Part shown: one piece after another, positions 2,621-30,741 of the stretch | Position numbering within the stretch: position 1 is the first letter of the stretch | Layout: each line of letters begins with the position of its first letter | Assembly (NCBI GenBank): GCA_033065855.1 | Contig: JAVXUO010000083.1 | Location: forward strand, 211,326-275,325 | Source: Escallonia rubra | Lineage: Eukaryota > Streptophyta > Magnoliopsida > Escalloniales > Escalloniaceae | Length of the DNA: 64,000 nucleotides | Direction of reading: 5' to 3' | The notes under the pieces: model-generated | What the model saw: the letters and a program-made list of their open reading frames with translations, nothing else | The model's database searches: none | Told to the model about the DNA's origin: nothing | Made by a program: the position numbers and the translations under genes

Positions 2621-3260
2621 AATTTTGGTATCAGGCCTGGTGCATGGCTATTGTCAACTTGTGAAGTTAGGTGTTGTTTAGCCTTACTGCAAATTTAAGA
2701 GGAAGTCACTTTTTACACTCTCATCAGTTTCATGCGTATGTTCACACCCTAATTAAGTTACTGCTAAAATGTTAAAAATTTGTTACTATTGCACCTTTAG
2801 CGATAAATGATGACGTGGAAATAGATGCTACCGAATGTAAATTCTTTCTATTCTAAAAATACGTGGTACTGGGTATTCCTGATTGGTCGTTTGACATTTT
2901 GAACCCAGCTATTTATTGAGCAAATGGTGTCAGAAGCCACCAAATTAGCTGCGAAATAGGAGTGACGTCAATTGGGTGACAACCGCATTCATAAAGGAGT
3001 GCTAATAAATCATGGAAAGCATGGTTTGACTGCTTTGCAATAAATTTAACCAGATATATGGAATTAGATTCAAAGCAAATAGGGTTTTAGAATACATTCA
3101 TCTCGCTAAATCACACTCTTTCATTATGCCACTTCTTCCATATCACCGTTATTTGAACACACTGTATAGATCCCTTTCCTCATTCCAAAGGACCAAAAAT
3201 AGCAAGTGGAAGATATTCCTTTTTCATTGATTTGTTTGCCAGAAGTGAAAAAAACATGAA

Positions 3261-3340
3261 GGGTAGATATAGAGATAAGTTCTATCCATGGAAACTTGAA
3301 GGATAGATATAGAGATAAGTTCTATCCATGGAAACTTGAC
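3261..3340 (+). repeat. 40-bp tandem repeat in CML-B promoter, two copies
   Basis: Two adjacent 40-bp units (3261-3300 and 3301-3340) differ at only a couple of positions and contain GATAGATATAGAGATAAG. The orthologous promoter block at 14972 has one unit only, so the duplication is specific to this copy. It lies 40-120 bp upstream of the TATA box and could double a GATA-type site. Confidence 0.85.
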
Positions 3341-3381
3341 ACACAAGAGTACTCGTTCCTTTCCCGTCACTTTTTATTATT

Positions 3382-3388
3382 TATAAAA
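3382..3388 (+). promoter_or_regulatory. TATA box of CML-B
   Basis: TATAAAA lies 68-74 bp before the ATG at 3456, a normal spacing for a short plant leader, and is followed by a CACTCTTCAG-type pyrimidine-rich start region. Confidence 0.65.
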
Positions 3389-3455
3389 GACAGTCTCACT
3401 CTTCAGTTTTACTCACGCCAACTAACAAACCCTAAGTCACGAAACAGTAAGAAAC

Positions 3456-3725
3456 ATGGTTTGGAAGCCTAGATGTGCTAGTTACCCCTTGTCTGAGGAG
3501 GACCTAAGGGGTCTTCTCAAGAGATTTGACACCGATGGCAACGGAAAGCTAAGCAAGAATGAGCTCAAGGTTGCCTTCCACAGCTTGGGCTTGCACTTCA
3601 GTGGATGGAGAGCCGGACGAGCACTCCGTCGTGCCGACGCCGACGGAGATGGTCAAATTAGCGAAGATGAGATGCTAGAACTTGTCAAAATCTGTGCTGC
3701 GAAATGGGGATTTTCAATCAAATGA
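3456..3725 (+). CDS. Small two-EF-hand calmodulin-like protein (CML-B)
   Basis: An 89-residue single-exon EF-hand protein. Loop 1 is residues 25-36 (DTDGNGKLSKNE) and loop 2 is residues 61-72 (DADGDGQISEDE); both have all calcium-ligand positions expected. The linker carries FSGWRAGRAL. The N-terminus MVWKPRCASYPLSEEDL is shared with the broken paralog at 15882. It follows CML-A on the same strand by 1.6 kb, a tandem pair. The 3' UTR from 3726, including CTTCCAACCGCATGAG, also recurs after the broken paralog (20098-20195). The start is fixed by alignment with the paralog and by the TATA spacing. I infer a soluble calcium sensor without knowing its target. Confidence 0.9.
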   Translation: MVWKPRCASYPLSEEDLRGLLKRFDTDGNGKLSKNELKVAFHSLGLHFSGWRAGRALRRADADGDGQISEDEMLELVKICAAKWGFSIK

Positions 3726-3839
3726 TTTAGTCCTCTTTCCAGCATTCATAAACTAAGCTCTTTGTACTTCTTCCAACCGCATGAGACTGGGGAGAACCCT
3801 TATCTACAAGGGCTACCACCTCAGTCTCTAAGTGAGTTG

Positions 3840-4765
3840 TTGTCTAATTCTGTCTTCCTTATCTATTAAAGAGATGCTTTTTTCTTTCTCTTCATACCCT
3901 CTTGATTGATAGATGATAACTTGGTTTAGTCCTCCGAGGGTGAAATGCTTAGCTAGCGAGCCCACTATTGTCCTTGTGGAGCCGAAGGGGGCTAGATACG
4001 TAAAAGAGTATTGAAATAGAGTTAAAAAATGTAAACATGTATAAAAATCTCACGTTTTGCTAGTTCTCTCGTGATGACTGATGGGTCAGATTACTAACCT
4101 AAAAACTTATCACTTCCAGGCAACTTTGAGGGTTTCACACTAGTAATTTACCTATGTCGGTCTACGACATATGAAGGAAAAAAGAGAGGATGATAGTATA
4201 AATCAAACTTGGATTCCATATGTAGTACCACGTCTTCTTCTTGTTCCTCAAAAGTGCATTAAAGACTTAACAAAAATCTTTTAACAACGAATGACGGTAA
4301 AAAAACTACATAACATGATGTAAAAAATGAACATTTTTAAACCAATATATTTGACAAAAGTGGTCACTTAGATTAACTATAAACGATTAATTAGTAGTAA
4401 GTATGATAGAATATGAATACAGGGGAATCGTGCACTTAATCGAGTATATCATGCAAGAGAAGCAGACTCCACAATAACAAAGACATGAAAAGCATGATAA
4501 AGAATATGAATACAGGGGAATCGTGCACTTAATCTGAGTATATCATGCAAGAGTAGCAGACTCCACAATAACAAAGACATGAAAAGCAATTTCACGTGTG
4601 TCACGCTTTCTCTCTACTACTAATTATTCGACTTGTCAGTAGTAAGTACTGGGGTCTTGAATGAAAGATCCAGTTATCATATGGATCTCTCAAATGTGAT
4701 ACTGTTATGGACTAATTAACCTAACCTACGAGAGGTGTTTTTGGCAATAAGTGATTTTTGTGATT
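3840..4765. other. Intergenic, no gene seen
   Basis: AT-rich sequence after the CML-B 3' UTR. Apart from the 93-bp tandem repeat listed separately I see no coding, RNA or transposon signature. Confidence 0.5.
4408..4594 (+). repeat. 93-bp tandem duplication, two copies
   Basis: Two adjacent units, starting at 4408 and 4501 with AGAATATGAATACAGGGGAA, are nearly identical (one inserted T and one A/T change are visible). This is a recent local duplication without coding content. Confidence 0.9.
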
Positions 4766-5104
4766 CAAAAAGCTATTACCAGAGTTCTGCTTCATGTGAT
4801 GTACGACGATTGGACTACGTAGTAACTTGTTCATTAGCTCAAATTGTAAAATTTGTTATAGGCTTTAATGTTACGATCGCTTGTAAGAAACTCAGTGTAT
4901 ATGTGATGTTTTCTATCCCTTTTTTTTTGTTTCAAAATCTTGCTATCAGGCCTGCATATGCATGGCCATGATCAGCTCGTGAAGGAAGGTGTTGGTTAGT
5001 CTGATAGCAAATGTAAGAGAAATTCTATTTTCACACTCTTATATGTTTATTCACACCCTAAGTTACCGATAAAAGGTTATTATTTTGTTATTATTGGACC
5101 TTCA

Positions 5105-6179
5105 AGGCCCCTGCACACTTGTCATGGACTTGGTGCAAACTGTTGAAGCTCATAGCTATGATGAAGTCCCACATATCTTACAAAATTGGTGATGGAACAA
5201 ATACATGGCTTTGGCTGGACAATTGGATGCCAGGAGGTTCTTTATTAGAGAAATTTGGCCAGAGAATGATTTATGATTGTAGACTGCCTATAAACAGCAA
5301 GGTAGCAGCCATTATAGATAATGGCTCTTGGCAGATACCTTCTGTTAGATCACAAGATATGAGGAGATGGAATGAAGAAATGACTGGCCTAGCTCTGCCT
5401 CAGTTGAATACTAAGGATAAAATATGGTGGAATCTGCAAAGGCATGGAAAATTTACCATTAACTTTACCTGGGAGAAACTCAGACATACTGCTAATATAG
5501 CTCCCTAGTGGAAACTATTGTGGTTCCTTGGCCATATCCCTAGATGTGCTCTAATTCTTTTGATGTTATGTAAGGGGGGTCTGAGAACCAGTGATAAATT
5601 GAAGGCATGGAACTACACTATAGAAGATGGTTGCTCTATATGCAATGCTGAGAAGGAAACTGGAAATCATTTATTTGTACAATGCACTTTTGCTAGGAAC
5701 CTGTGGCACATGGTGTTTCAGAAGTTGCAAATTGGGATACCACTGATAAATTGGCAACAGCTACTAAACCAGGCTTCAAGAATGTTCAGAGGGAAAAGCT
5801 TCTTTGCTAGGCTAAGTAAACTAGCTTTGGCAGTCACAGTTTATGCAATATGGAATGAAAGAAACTTGAGAATCTTCAAGCAAGAACAGGGGAAAGAGGA
5901 AGTGTGTTTTCGGTCAATACAACAGATGATTAAACACAGTGTGCTAAGCTGGAACAAGTCTCCTGCAGGACCTGCACACAGCTTAAACCAACAGTTATGT
6001 CATGCATGGGAACTTCATGACTGCATTTTAACACCTGGGAATGAGTAGATGAGTATAATCTGTATACTATGTAATCATGCTACAGTAAATAACTAAGACT
6101 AAGGTTGTATATACTTGTACATAGTAAAGTGTTTTGAGTTCTCATGGAATAAAATGACATTTTACCCACACAAAAAAAA
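5105..6179 (+). mobile_element. 5'-truncated LINE (L1-type) insertion
   Basis: Non-LTR retrotransposon fragment with the C-terminal part of ORF2, a short 3' UTR and an A-run at 6172-6179. It interrupts the second copy of the CML-B promoter block: host-like sequence stops near 5104 and resumes near 6180. Compared with the uninterrupted copies (2800-2825 and 14375-14400), roughly 20 bp of host sequence is missing at the junction and no clear target-site duplication is visible, so integration may have been coupled to a small deletion. Confidence 0.8.
5119..6048 (+). pseudogene. LINE ORF2 C-terminal zf-RVT domain, broken
   Basis: The reading frame encodes the region downstream of reverse transcriptase in plant L1 elements: an IGDGTNTWLWLDNW motif, then the zinc-binding zf-RVT segment with CSICNAEKETGNHLFVQC, then an AIWNERNLRIF motif. 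One in-frame TAG at 5506-5508 (just before WKLLWF) interrupts it, after which the same frame stays open to the natural stop at 6046-6048. The RT and endonuclease domains are absent through 5' truncation. It cannot encode a working retrotransposition protein. Confidence 0.88.
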
Positions 6180-6440
6180 TAGATGCTCCCCGAAAGTAAC
6201 CTCCTATTATTGTAAGAATATATGGCACTGGGTATTCTTGGTCGTTTGACTTTTTGACCCTGGCTATTTCTTGTGCAAACGGTATCAGATGCCATTAAAT
6301 TAGCTGCAAAATAGTAGTGACGTCAATTGGGTGACGACCACATTCAGAATGGAGTGCTAATAAATCATGGAAAGCATGGTTTGACTGCGTTGCAATAGAT
6401 TATTTAACCATTACTATCGAATTAGATTCAAACAAAATAG
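6180..6440 (+). repeat. CML-B promoter block copy 2, gene lost
   Basis: Sequence matching 2845-3090 and 14405-14660 resumes after the LINE. It stops near 6440 and jumps to sequence that in the third copy lies downstream of the gene (6462 matches 20203). The CML coding region expected between was therefore deleted in this copy. Confidence 0.75.
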
Positions 6441-6461
6441 GTCTTTTATGAAAATACTTTC

Positions 6462-6720
6462 TACGGAATATTATATTTGTAATACATATCACTCTTAAGA
6501 GAAGTTACTGCCAATACAGGCAAATGCCTCGCCCCAATCGAGGTACCAGGGAAATTTAGCATTGATTTGATGTTTCTGTTGAAAGACTCGTTAGTTCTTT
6601 TAAAATGTAAAAATAATTTCGCTACACCTGACTGCGAATAACCTTTGGGTTTTGATGTCACAAAAGCAATATTCAGAAACTGGTTAAGTGCACGAGCGAT
6701 GCACGTGAACACCAATATTT
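6462..6720 (+). repeat. Downstream block of a lost CML-B copy
   Basis: Matches 20203-20400 with scattered differences (shared TCGAGGTACC, GTTGAAAGACTC, AACCTTTGGGTTTTGATGTC). At 20.2 kb it lies after the broken CML, which is why I read 4770-6720 as a gene-less third copy of the unit. Confidence 0.8.
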
Positions 6721-7640
6721 AATGGGTTCATATTTAAAAAAAATCAGTTTGCATCACAACAAAAATCAAGTAAGGAATTAAGAGAAAATATATACGCAAT
6801 TCAACATATTGGTTGCTAAGTAATTGACACATGAGAATATGGGCGCAAGTAATTATTTTGCTCATAGAAGGCATTCATAAACATGGAACAAACATGTCAC
6901 CGAAATTTTGACGGACCTGAGCCTTCCCTTAATCCAAATAAAAGCCCCATTTTAATGGTTGGCCTTTCAAAAAAAAAAACAAAGGATTAAAGAAAGCCCA
7001 AAAATTAATAGATATGGCTCCATTATAAAATATTTTTGAAAATATTTCAGAAAAGAGATTGATATGAACTTAGACATATATTCCATCCAAATAAGAAGTA
7101 CATTACATAAGAAGTACTTGGATATTTTTGGATTGGTTGGAGATGGAAAGTCTTTGAGCCTAAGGCTTATCACGTGAAGCCGAAGAGAAGGAAAAGATAA
7201 CCTAAGGCTTATTAACAGGGGTAGTACAATCTTCTGTCGGTTGGATAAAAGGGGAAAAGGAGTCAGCCAAAAAAAAAAAAAAACAACCAAAGAGAGACTT
7301 CGGCAGGAGAGAGAGAAAGGAGGGCCCAGTCGGCAGCAACGAAAAAGAAAAGAAAGAAGAAGAGGCTGTTTGCCTGCTTGGGCAGAAGAGAAAAGGAAAG
7401 GAAAAAAAGGAGAGAGAAGGGAAGAAGAAGAAGAAGAAGAAGAAGAAGAAGAGAGAGATGGGTTCAAGGTGAATACTGTCCTTTTTAATTGTCTTCTCTT
7501 ATTATTTTACGTAAATTTTGATTATATGATGTACTATATTTTCATGCAAAAATGAAAAATTCATATATTCATATTTTATTTAATCGGAGGTCGTCGTGGA
7601 CGTAATTAATGCTTGACTTTTAGGCATATATATATGGGAG
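6721..7640. other. Intergenic with GAA microsatellite
   Basis: No gene recognised. A purine-rich stretch from about 7240 ends in a (GAA)n tract at about 7421-7451; the 104-aa plus-strand and 166-aa minus-strand open frames here are low-complexity Lys/Glu and Ser/Phe strings produced by the repeat. Confidence 0.6.
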
Positions 7641-7747
7641 CTGATTCGTTGAGCGCTAGCAAAATAAGCTATTTTGCAAGCGCGATCTGACCGTCTATCC
7701 TGAAAGATAGACGGCCCAGATTTTGTCTTTTTCGAAAACTGTAAGTT

Positions 7748-15877: not shown

Positions 15878-16199
15878 TGTCATGCTTTGGAAGCCTAGAT
15901 GTGCAAGTTACCCCTTGTCTGAGGAGGACCTAAGGGGTCTTCTCAAGAGATTCGACACCGATGGCAATGGAAAGCTAAGCAAGAATGAGCTCAAGGTTGC
16001 CTTCCACAGCTTGGGCTTGCACTTCAGTGGATGGAGAGTCGGACGAGCACTCACTACACCAAAACTGCCCTATGGTGACAAGAAGGCCTACGGTATAAAA
16101 GGAACCGTAGGTACAAGTTATGTATGCCTACGGTTAACATTGTACCGTGGCTATTCGTGCTGCTTCGGTTTGGAAGAACAGTCACGACGGTGCTTACCG

Positions 16200-16700
16200 T
16201 GGGGGCAGAAGTGTGGCAACTCCCTCTCTCTCTCTCTCTCTCTCTTCCCCCCCGACAGACGCACGACTCTCTCTGTCTCTCTGTGACTTGTCTCTCAGTC
16301 TCTCACCCATTACCAAACCGAAGACGGCAGACATCACCCCCGACGGCGACACGCTCACACGCCGACACGGCGGCCGGCAGGGGCTTTCACCTCCACCAGC
16401 CGACTCTCTCTGTTGAGGAGAGCTCAGATCTGGAACGAGTGGTCGGAGTGGAGCCATGGAAGGAGATGGAGATGGACCGGCGAAGAGGTCTTCTTCTGTT
16501 CGAATCTAGAAGTATCAGTGAACGGCGAGTGACAACGACGAGGTGAGGACTCCACCGGCCAAGAACCCACTACCGGCGACGACGCGTCGACGACCGGTGA
16601 CCCGTGACCGGTCAATTAATCAACTGCCTTCATCATTTTCAGATTTAGGTACACATTTCAGATTGTTAATTGATCACTTGCTTGTAGACATTAGTAGTTT
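16200..16700 (+). other. GC-rich captured leader with CT microsatellite
   Basis: A (CT)n run at about 16221-16247 is followed by GC-rich sequence to 16610, then AT-rich sequence. It resembles the 5' leader/promoter-proximal part of a host gene carried inside the transposon. Overlapping open frames (134-140 aa) are compositionally biased and I do not call them genes. Confidence 0.4.
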
Positions 16701-16761
16701 CTGTCATTTCGAGTGCACTACAAAAGTAGAGAGAGAAGAGAAAGAGCAGAGACGAGAGAGG

Positions 16762-17118
16762 ATGTTGAAGTTCTTGTCGAGAGTGCGGATCGAGTTCAAC
16801 GCCCTGGACCCACGCACGGCCGCTTCCATGGAATTCCTAGCACAATGCAACGCCCGCAAGGCCAAGGAGTCCAACCCGGCCTGCCAAGTAGTCGTCAAGC
16901 GCCGCACCGACGACCACCCGCCCCAAATCACGGTGACATTCGTCAACGGCGTCGAGGAGATGTTCGACGCCACCGCCACGACCGCGCAGGACATCCGTAA
17001 TATGATCCTCGAGAAAGGCCAGATGTTAGAGACCGAGCAGATGTTCAAAGAGGCCGGGGAAAAATGGCCTGTTGTTATACCCGAAGAGGAGCTCAGCCAG
17101 TCTTTTCCGGGTACTAAG
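16762..17118 (+). pseudogene. Captured mitochondrial ribosomal protein mL53-like exon
   Basis: The exon encodes 119 residues starting MLKFLSRVRIEFNALDP and containing QCNARKAKESNPACQV, VKRRTDDHPPQITVTFVNG and EKWPVVIPEEEL. I recognise this as the plant mL53-type mitochondrial large-subunit protein (MRP-L53 family, thioredoxin-like fold). The frame is intact. At 17118/17119 a consensus donor (AAG|GTAAAC) marks an exon end; without splicing translation stops at 17148 (128 aa). The downstream short exon was not found. Because it lies inside a CACTA element with CG-rich codons unlike the surroundings, I read it as a captured copy; expression is possible but unproven. Confidence 0.7.
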
Positions 17119-18689
17119 GTAAACTTCCCTTTTTTTTTGCGTAACTAGATGTGGGCAAGTCTCAGTTTTCGGTGGTTGTTTGTGTTTTGGATGAAGCAAT
17201 TGGTCGAACAACTGGTGGGCAATGTTTCTTTCCCTTCGAATTTTAGCTTGATTGTGCCTTGCTTTCCCAATTGCTGTCCTAATAACATCCATGGTTTTGT
17301 TTTCTACTTATTGATGTTGTTTTTAGAAAGACTCTGAATGCCTACAAAGTTATCCAATCTTTTGGGCTTAGTAGGAAATGGAAGTAGAAAACGAAGTAGT
17401 TAATGTCCTAATAACATTTGATGAACTTTAAGTAGTGTCTGCAATTGCATCCGTGTCCACTGGGGCTGTGACCCTGGTCTTGATACATGGATGTAAAGGG
17501 TAAAGCCAAAGTAAGAATTTAGTTTGAAAAGATGTGAACTGAAGTGTTGAAGTTCAAACTAAAGGATGAACTTGCAAAGAGTTACTAAATGTAAAATTGA
17601 CAACCAAGAAGATGGAAGGCATTTCTTTATTCAACATTCATCAAACACAGCACAGGACCAGTACTCTCTACCACCTTATCCCCTTCTGATGTATCCTTTA
17701 GACAAATTACTGGCTCAAAATTCTTATCAACCTAATGCAAATTCACTTGAGCCCCTGATTTTGCACTATCCAGCAGCCTCACTTGAGGAATGTAATTGAA
17801 TACATGTTGCAATTTATGGGCAGCTGGTAGGCCGGGACAAATTCAAAAGTTTGTCCCCTGTAGAGGGTCTTCTGTTAAAGTTTTTGTCTTTGTACTTGCT
17901 AGTTGGAGTCTGAAATAATGACTGCGCGCAGAAAGGCCCAGCAGCTGCATGGAATGCAGTTGTCAATGTACTCTGAGCTGCTGATCCTTGTGCTTCCATT
18001 AAAAATGGATATGCACATTTAATACAGGCGTGTGATTTATTTTGTGATTGATCTTTCTTGAGCTGCTGATGTATCCTTTAGACAAATGGATATGCACATT
18101 CTTGAGCTGCTGATCCATGTGCTTCCACCTAATGCAACATCTGCTGATGTATCCTTTAGACAAATTACTGGCTCAAAATTCTTGTGCATTCATGTGTTGT
18201 GGACTTGAGTGCTTATAAAGTAGCCAATGTATAATTGATGAGTTTTGTTATTGAACTTCTAATACATATACACAATCAAATAATGAGTATATGTTTGCAT
18301 TTGCCGGTGGAATTAGAAAGCGTTGATGAAATGTGATCGGTGCCTTAAATGGTGACGAGATAACTACATTTTGCTTTTGGTTGGACATTGGATAGTTTGG
18401 TAGTCACAAGGCCTTTTGTGGTTGTTATCATTCTAGGCACTTAGAACCAGTGGTTATCTCTAATTTTGGAGTAAATGTAAATTATTCATTTGAGACGTTT
18501 AGATGATATGAGGATTTTGGATGTTATACTTCAATTCACTTTTGTTTTTATCTTCTTATGGTTGCAATGTGTATGAACTAAATTGGGCTACTTGATGTTT
18601 TGATGTGGTACATATTGGAATAGGTGAAGTAGGTATACAAGTATATAAATATTTGTAATTTGGTAAAATGAAAATAACACCATGTTACA
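17119..18689. other. Interior of CACTA element, probably captured intron or 3' gene sequence
   Basis: AT-rich sequence with no recognised domain. A short segment GATGTATCCTTTAGACAAAT recurs at 17687, 18068 and 18145, showing small internal duplications. It may be the intron and downstream part of the captured mL53-like gene. Confidence 0.4.
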
Positions 18690-19085
18690 ACGCTAAGAAG
18701 CGTCCCAAAAGAGTTACTGGGACGCTCTTTAGCGTCGCTACATGACATATTAAAGTATTCTGCTTTAGCACTTTATAGGACGTTTGTTTGCGTTTTGTTA
18801 AGCCTTACTTTTAGGGACGCACGCAAAGACGCTACTAAGTGCCCCAAAAGAGTTATTGGAACGCTCAATAGCGTCGCAATAAGGCATACCAAAGTCTTCT
18901 AGTTAAGCACTTTTTAGGACGCTTATTTTGCGTCTTGTTAGCCTTACCCTTATTGAGGCGCTTTTGATGCGTCCGCATAACTTATTGTGACGGCGTCTAA
19001 TGGGGCGGGGTTACGACGCAATTCAAAACGTCCTTATGTTAAAAGCGTCCTTACATTTACCTTACAACCCAGTTTTGTTGTAGTG
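18690..19085 (+). mobile_element. Nested CACTA-like terminal fragment with GCGTC repeats
   Basis: Ends CCCAGTTTTGTTGTAGTG at 19085, a second CACTA-type 3' terminus inside the larger element. The preceding 0.4 kb has dense GGACGC/GCGTCC motifs in both orientations and two diverged tandem units of about 145 bp (from about 18700 and 18842, both starting with CCCAAAAGAGTTA). These are typical subterminal repeats. I did not find the matching 5' terminus, so it is a fragment or its left end has decayed. Confidence 0.6.
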
Positions 19086-19657
19086 TGTAATGACTTCTAA
19101 TAAAAAGGTTCTGTAGCACTTAAGTCAAAATATTTACCAACTTTGGGAACTGCCTTCACATTTGTGGTTAGTTTCCTTGTAACCGGGCCATCTACATAGC
19201 ATTCAGATGGTTGTTGTCTGCCATGACTTGTTTTTACCTTTGAGGGTTTATAGGAATTCATTTTGCTTATCTTTGCATTTTTTTCTCCTATAATCCGGCA
19301 ACTATTTGGTCTGAAATCTGACGGCATTTACGTCGGTACATCAGGCACGTCAACCCTTTTAGCTAGTGAAAGAGGCTTTACAGAATGGTACGCTATTGAA
19401 GTTTAATACTTGTATCGCATGCTTTTTGTTATTACCTATCTTAACCTTCTTCCACGAGATTGTTATGGATTTGGCTAAACTATAGAGTTAAGTCCCTAAA
19501 ACATTGTGATTTTAGTTAATTTGATTGGCATGATTATGGTTCCCTTACTGGTGCATCTATTGATCTTGCAGTAGCGGTTCTATAAGTTGGTGCTTGGCAG
19601 GGGTGTAGTGATAGCATGAAAATGATTTTGTAAATATTTTTTTTGACAAATAAAGAG

Positions 19658-19950
19658 CTATGCCTACGGTATGTACCGTAGGCATAGGTTGGGAATAAAA
19701 ATAAGAATACAGCTATGCCTACCGCAGTACCGTAGGCATAGCTATAAAAATAAGAATACAGCTATGCCTACGGTAGTACCGTAGGCATAGCTGGGAATAA
19801 GTGGGCTACGGTATAACCGTAAGCATAACCTTCAACCCCCGTAGGCATAGATCTAGGGTATCGCCACTTCTGGCTACGGTATAGTACCGTAGGGATAGGC
19901 TATGCCTACGGGACATGGCACCTATACCTACGGTACTGTACTGTAGGCAT
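19658..19950 (+). repeat. Subterminal repeats of the CACTA element
   Basis: At least five units pair TATGCCTACGGTA with TACCGTAGGCATA, forming short hairpins; two spacers of AAAAATAAGAATACAGC are identical. The same GCCTACGGTA core appears at the left end near 16088. In this superfamily such arrays are transposase-binding sites. Confidence 0.85.
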
Positions 19951-20073
19951 AAGCTGGTTTTCTTGTAGTGACTCCGTCGTGCCGATGCTAACAGAGATGG
20001 TCAAATTAGCGAAGATGAGATGCTAAAACTTGTCAAAATATGTGCTGCGAAATGGGGATTTTCAATTAAATGA

Positions 20074-24214: not shown

Positions 24215-24496
24215 ATGCCTATTGTCACGGTCACGGTGCTCAAGGCTGGAAAAAAATTTCCTCTCACAGAAGAGCAGCTAAAGGGCATCTTCAAACAGAA
24301 CGACAAAAACGGCGACGGCCTTCTGAGCAAGGAAGAGCTCAAGGAAGCTTTCAAGAACCTGGGTGCGCTCTTCCCTGGCTGGAGAGCGTCGCGTGGTCTC
24401 CATTACGCCGATGCTAACGGAGACGGATACATCAGCTAGGAAGAGTTGAACGCCCTCGTGCAGTATGCTGCAAGTATTGGATATACTGTCAAGTAA
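24215..24496 (+). pseudogene. CML-D with one nonsense codon
   Basis: The frame encodes MPIVTVTVLKAGKKFPLTEEQ, EF-hand 1 (DKNGDGLLSKEE), the FPGWRASRGL linker and EF-hand 2 up to DANGDGYIS, then TAG at 24437-24439. The intact paralog at 30466 has AAG (Lys) there. The stop removes Glu12 of the second loop and its exiting helix; beyond it the frame continues undamaged to TAA at 24494-24496 (EELNALVQYAASIGYTVK). Full frame 93 residues; the truncated product would have 74. Promoter, leader and AATAAA (24621-24626) are retained, so a transcript is plausible. Recent loss, or a sequencing error or an allele. Confidence 0.9.
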
Positions 24497-30465: not shown

Positions 30466-30741
30466 ATGCCTATTTTCACGGTTGTGCCCAAGAATGGAAA
30501 CATTGCTCTGACAGAAGAGCAGCTAAAGGGCATCTTCAAACAGAACGACAAAAACGGCGACGGCCTTCTGAGCAAGGAAGAGCTCAAAGAAGCCTTCAAG
30601 CACCTGGGTGCGCTCATCCCCGGCTGGAGAGCTTCGCGCGGTCTCCGTTACGCTGATGCTAACGGAGACGGATACATCAGCAAGGGAGAGTTGGACGCCC
30701 TCGTGAAGTATGCTGCAAGTATTGGATATACTGTCAAGTAA
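30466..30741 (+). CDS. Small two-EF-hand calmodulin-like protein (CML-E)
   Basis: A 91-residue single-exon protein. EF-hand 1 loop about residues 27-38 (DKNGDGLLSKEE) and EF-hand 2 loop about 63-74 (DANGDGYISKGE), both with full ligand sets; linker IPGWRASRGL. It is the intact partner of the nonsense-mutated copy at 24215: most of the protein is identical, the main differences being at the N-terminus (VPKNGNIALTEE versus VLKAGKKFPLTEE). An AATAAA signal lies at 30867-30872. Start supported by TATA spacing and conservation with the duplicate. Function inferred as a soluble calcium sensor. Confidence 0.92.
   Translation: MPIFTVVPKNGNIALTEEQLKGIFKQNDKNGDGLLSKEELKEAFKHLGALIPGWRASRGLRYADANGDGYISKGELDALVKYAASIGYTVK

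Follow-up and report, generated by a model that had tools for sequence, protein, structure and literature searches.

How does an intact exon of a gene for a mitochondrial ribosomal protein come to lie inside a DNA transposon? The question is raised by a 64,000-bp stretch of the Escallonia rubra genome (contig JAVXUO010000083.1, forward-strand positions 211,326 to 275,325; hereafter the window, G000:C2143:211326-275325), in which a CACTA element encloses the first exon of the gene for the ribosomal protein mL53. A reading of the window made from its letters alone (here, the sequence-only reading) had proposed transduplication of this exon by the element. We searched the genome (566 Mb in 3,222 contigs) and found a native parent gene, relatives of the element that lack the exon, and 19 further element-borne copies, which support that proposal. 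Very probably, a non-autonomous CACTA element copied a 575-bp piece of mL53 and spread with it to about 20 places, where the exon seems to have been drifting.

An mL53 exon inside a CACTA element

The exon (mL53 exon 1; 16762..17118, plus strand) comprises 119 codons without a stop and is followed by the start of mL53 intron 1 (17119..17258, plus strand), with the splice donor GT at 17119-17120; the intact frame and donor described earlier are thus borne out. Its likeness to mL53 also passed a profile search (PF10780, MRP_L53; E = 3.1e-14, 53.2 bits, curated cutoff of 25.3), and solved plant mL53 chains are matched over residues 1-119 (6xyw_AJ, 4e-60; 9evs_1m, 5.5e-60). The window copy is an exon and an incomplete gene: exon 2 lies outside the stretch that matches the native locus, and unspliced read-through of the exon frame gives 128 residues. 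The sole replacement private to the window exon, relative to the majority of the copies, is P74T (16981 C>A).

The whole element (16052..19970, plus strand; 3,919 bp) was delimited by its termini, its target-site duplication, and homologous elements at other places. It starts with the 5' terminal inverted repeat CACTACACCAAAACTG (16052..16067, plus strand) and ends with the 3' terminal inverted repeat GTTTTCTTGTAGTG (19957..19970, plus strand), and the duplicated target site ACT flanks it on the left (16049..16051) and right (19971..19973), which confirms the CACTA element that had been read at this position. Its terminal inverted repeats start with CACTA (CACTACACC...GTAGTG), its duplication is 3 bp long (ACT/ACT), and CTATGCCTACGGTA-type subterminal repeats lie near both ends, all as in the CACTA superfamily. 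The 5' set of subterminal repeats (GCCTACGGT type; 16086..16153, plus strand) matches those near the 3' end (repeat families D3 and D5), where CTATGCCTACGGTA and its complement occupy 19656..19957 (plus strand). No transposase frame was found among the listed open frames of the element.

The ends and duplication are assigned as above because an empty site was found in a close paralog of the gene that the element interrupts. To the left of the element, 15882-16049 encodes part of an EF-hand protein (Pfam EF-hand_6, 3.4e-7), and at 3616-3644 the two flanks are joined with a single ACT in a paralog 96% identical over 56 residues to the broken gene. This 29-base joined-flank pattern (3 mismatches) occurs at one place in the window, with 0 expected by chance.

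The native parent gene and its copies

All 22 first-look candidates of a genome-wide protein search for mL53 were scored, giving 22 matches at 21 places; C231 was counted twice because an insert splits the exon there. One place is a native gene outside the element (L017; G000:C2182:313500-321500, minus strand), and the other 20 (the window, L009-L016, and L018-L028) are element-borne copies, each adjoining element sequence. The native gene has two exons (exon 1, 317554-317910; exon 2, 314434-314463, with nine codons and a stop) separated by an intron of 3,090 bp, and its product of 128 aa, with the C terminus PRKAEEKKQ, aligns along its full length with solved plant mL53. The host gene that would have donated the exon is therefore still present, and the window copy is not the only mL53 of this genome. 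Between the element and the 8-kb native locus, the match is confined to element positions 631-1215, and no element termini were found at that locus in the orientation scanned.

Capture between two direct repeats

The captured host DNA (16684..17258, plus strand; ~575 bp) consists of an upstream or 5' untranslated stretch of mL53, exon 1, and the start of intron 1; the match between the window and the native locus spans 16682-17259. The acceptor can be read from exon-free relatives, of which three (L029-L031) were fetched from 13 places with an 84-bp match and no exon. Their match to the element breaks off at position 632 (16683) and resumes at position 1208 (17259), and the DNA between amounts to 129, 144, and 129 bp in the three, instead of the ~575 bp captured. 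In these relatives, a 15-bp direct repeat, TTGCTTTCCCAATTG, borders both edges of the replaced stretch. Parent, exon-free acceptor, and loaded element thus stand together in one genome at 1-2% divergence, which is uncommon and makes the capture readable almost base by base.

The copies share their history. The right junction is identical in 19 of 20 (L016 ends before it), Met67 is common to the copies wherever the site is covered (Val67 in the parent), and an alignment of the 19-copy majority sequence with the parent shows seven differences, three of them in the exon. The simplest account is that the copies would stem from one capture followed by amplification. Five further places carry just a 117-bp piece with the exon end and intron sequence.

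Most likely, a break between the two TTGCTTTCCCAATTG repeats was under repair when the mL53 piece came to replace the DNA between them. The loaded element then moved many times, probably by means of a transposase supplied in trans, reaching about 20 places, including the window, where it broke the EF-hand gene; later, the beginning of the exon was deleted from some copies, some swapped their 5' terminus, and some now hold other gene-like pieces. Abortive gap repair is reported as a second capture route. An 8-bp homology near the left junction, ACTTGCTT, was set aside from this reconstruction; it was chosen post hoc and needs a 10-bp loss. As a control, 8 bp or more were shared by 0.26% of 5,000 random parent-locus windows.

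Spread of the loaded element

Both ends were located in 16 of the 20 copies. In 15 of them, the 3 bp on either side are the same (for instance, ATG twice around L025 and AAT twice around L027), the exception being L013 (acc/aca). Such duplications indicate that the exon was mobilized repeatedly. L018 and L019, on two contigs, share their flanks, which are 98-99% alike; they count as a single insertion, present twice through haplotypes or a segmental duplication, leaving 14 distinct insertions with perfect duplications. The captured piece has thus been multiplied by transposition to 20 element-borne places, 19 of them in addition to the window element.

A tnp2 frame (Pfam Transposase_21, 2.3e-77; no match in an NCBIfam scan) lies at L022, downstream of a third CACTA start (L022 3831), and the unit formed by this start and the frame (L022 3831-8001) adjoins the mL53-carrying element or is nested in it. 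L022 was therefore dropped as a candidate autonomous element carrying mL53, since another CACTA start precedes the tnp2 frame, which probably belongs to the neighboring or nested element.

Remodeled copies and exchanged 5' ends

A full-length open exon that retains its ATG is found in 10 of the 20 copies (the window, L009-L015, L018, and L019), and L016 has the whole exon with ATA in place of ATG. Six copies (L020-L025) hold an open exon lacking its 5' part, L026 has an exon split by an insert, and L027 and L028 retain the 3' part alone. None of the 20 has an in-frame stop within the mL53 part (in L022 and L025, a stop precedes the join), and all 20 retain the donor GT. In L020, L021, L023, and L024, a common deletion brings the ATG of the element's leader into frame with the exon (MEMDRRRW...), and the L023 frame opens further upstream than this ATG.

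In L022 and L025, the 5' terminus is another one, CACTACAACAAATATGAG, and its join to the exon lies at element position 750. Of these two, L025 is a hybrid element (3444-7686, exon-sense coordinates) with this foreign 5' terminus and the family 3' end; L027 is another (2848-6462, exon-sense coordinates), starting with CACTACAACAAAACTAGCC, a related terminus, and likewise ending with the family 3' end. The mL53 exon is thus found behind three 5' termini, which shows that captured exons can pass between CACTA subfamilies.

Some copies hold other gene-like sequence. L014 contains an ATG16-like frame (4559-4810; Pfam, 6.1e-10; PDB ATG16-1, 0.0036) in its mL53-carrying element, which is, to judge from these matches, a further captured gene piece. 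A leader and frame are common to L027 (3021-3329), L032, and L033 and recur, with 94-100% identity, in at least a dozen further places. This is another gene-like first exon amplified within CACTA-type elements; the L027 frame presumably resembles a YIP4-type membrane protein. An extra 0.8-1.2 kb is common to L020, L021, L023, L027, L032, and L033, and two L023 frames from this shared piece matched no Pfam family; nor was there a Pfam match for the frame of L027, for two frames of L016, or for one of L014.

Near-neutral change in the exon

Selection was assessed on 19 copies, excluding the parent and dropping L019 as the same insertion as L018. The 73 distinct exon changes comprise 43 nonsynonymous, 30 synonymous, and 0 nonsense changes, where 44.7, 25.4, and 2.86, respectively, were expected from the observed mutation classes. 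The nonsynonymous share is indistinguishable from neutral (P = 0.40), and the data reject a ratio of nonsynonymous to synonymous rates (dN/dS) at or below 0.5 (P = 0.025). The dN/dS check on the exon thus points to changes close to neutral, which speak against a maintained protein function; the exon copies appear to drift near-neutrally, with almost no constraint.

C>T or G>A changes in the exon occurred at 26 of 66 CG, 13 of 36 CHG, and 16 of 105 CHH chances, an excess of transitions at CG and CHG over CHH sites (Fisher P = 2.6e-4). This is the pattern expected of CG/CHG-methylated DNA and suggests that the copies have been methylated. Divergence from the majority sequence of the copies is 1.1% outside the exon (41 of 3,603 bases) and 1.4% inside it (89 of 6,204), which, at plant substitution rates, would correspond very roughly to an age on the order of one to two million years.

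Weighing the capture against other explanations

Several observations weigh against this account. Junction homology is short (on the simplest reading, 2 bp on the left and 1 bp on the right), and no transposase with the family termini was identified. In the exon, a dN/dS of 0.7 is compatible with the data (P = 0.30) and nonsense changes are absent (P = 0.057 against the 2.86 expected), so that the copies may be under weak constraint. Beyond the exon, the 30 changes show no C>T excess (16 transversions, 4 CG, 2 CHG, 5 CHH, and 3 A/T transitions), some of them sitting in a poorly aligning poly-T tract.

Because the junction homology is short, the repair route is unproven, and the published tandem-insertion model could yield such junctions. 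Two elements flanking mL53 exon 1 would, by that model, have suffered complementary terminal deletions and been excised jointly as a hybrid with the exon between them. A review gives this sequence of tandem insertion and aberrant excision as the capture route of Arabidopsis Pack-CACTA (PMC13317346). The exchange of 5' ends in the hybrids L025 (flanked by ATG) and L027 (flanked by AAT) indicates that tandem-type joining also happens in this family. As the origin of the mL53 capture, we nonetheless consider it unlikely: both junctions fall at copies of one 15-bp repeat, only ~129 bp apart in the exon-free relatives, which would be rare from independent truncations, and no further element match and, in the scanned orientation, no terminal sequence was found in the 8 kb of the native locus. 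Junctions at a single internal repeat favor a repair-type replacement over tandem insertion.

It is very improbable that the exon copies are selected as genes, with spliced, read-through (128 aa here), or chimeric products in use. Such use would suit the mL53 part being stop-free and the GT donors being kept in all 20 copies, the deletion that sets the leader ATG in frame in L020, L021, L023, and L024, and the splicing of soybean Tgm-Express1 fragments into transcripts (PMC1947982), but few stops are expected anyway at 1-2% divergence, the exon is truncated in 9 of the 20 copies, L016 has lost its start codon, and the proportion of nonsynonymous to synonymous changes matches the neutral expectation, with a dN/dS of 0.5 or less rejected. 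Finally, an insertion that enclosed or adjoined the sole native mL53 gene, with nothing captured, would suit the intact window exon and its donor and can be dismissed as refuted, given a complete two-exon mL53 elsewhere (L017) without element sequence and 20 copies inside elements.

Possible consequences for the native gene

We offer as a doubtful extension of the capture account that the ~20 near-identical exon copies are methylated and feed small RNAs directed against the sole native mL53, while the exon is passed between subfamilies and in-frame chimeras (MEMDRRRW-mL53) are tried out. If true, an essential single-copy mitoribosome gene and a mobile element would be locked in a long-term conflict. 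Epigenetic conflict of this kind is reportedly a subject of work in maize, and the presence of a single native mL53 gene makes a small-RNA conflict directly testable.

Leader, composite segment, and insertion site

Upstream of the exon lies a GC-rich leader (16240..16640, plus strand), which is also present in the exon-free relatives L029-L031. The sequence-only reading had noted this leader and suggested that it possibly came from another gene; the leader itself is there, and a second capture private to the window element is rejected. When the genome was searched with the 401-bp leader, 40 of 423 first-look candidates were scored, all as matches; 15 of them coincide with mL53 places and 25 are at places lacking any mL53 match, showing that the leader is a sequence of the element family. 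The family as a whole may have captured it earlier.

Downstream, a composite segment (17461..19085, plus strand) shares its first 1,257 bp with L009 and its first 868 bp with L028, and 14 of the 20 copies match a 336-bp segment wholly or partly at the corresponding place. It includes a foreign CACTA-like 3' end (18690..19085, plus strand) with 139-bp subterminal repeats, ending in GTTTTGTTGTAGTG; no 5' end matching it was found in the window.

The insertion lies in a tandem group of EF-hand genes, of which the element interrupts a member spanning 15882-16051 and 19971-20072. Paralogs occupy 3456-3623, 1592-1747, 24254-24394, and 30487-30639. Seven of the 13 EF-hand matches genome-wide are on the window contig, five of them within the window, the broken copy included.

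Relation to known CACTA captures

The mL53 element is a case of Pack-CACTA- or Tpn1-like transduplication, a process already known; a literature search on the capture of mL53 or ribosomal proteins found, in its listings, no description of the present case. Like the Pack-CACTA elements of Arabidopsis, rice, and maize, the mL53 element combines non-autonomous CACTA ends, 3-bp duplications, and captured coding DNA that has been multiplied (PMC8903248). Most CACTA Pack-TYPE elements are low in copy number in the species studied there, whereas the mL53 exon occurs at 20 places, and, unlike in Pack-CACTA, the junction pattern here suggests internal replacement between repeats. The element also recalls Tpn1 of the Japanese morning glory, a high-copy non-autonomous CACTA family that keeps its ends, has its interior exchanged for pieces of host genes, and gives some chimeric transcripts (PMC5105172). 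The likeness is one of the kind of event; Tpn1 differs from the mL53 element in its ends, captured gene, and host. Soybean Tgm-Express1 is likewise a CACTA element with fragments of host genes whose splice sites can be used (PMC1947982), but its fragments number five and its transcripts have been analyzed, whereas the window element has one recognized fragment and is known from DNA. In grapevine, Cactavine also amplifies host gene pieces (PMC2528002); there, the CACTA case involves two copies and an antisense piece of a pentatricopeptide-repeat gene, whereas in E. rubra the exon lies in the same sense as the leader and is present in many copies.

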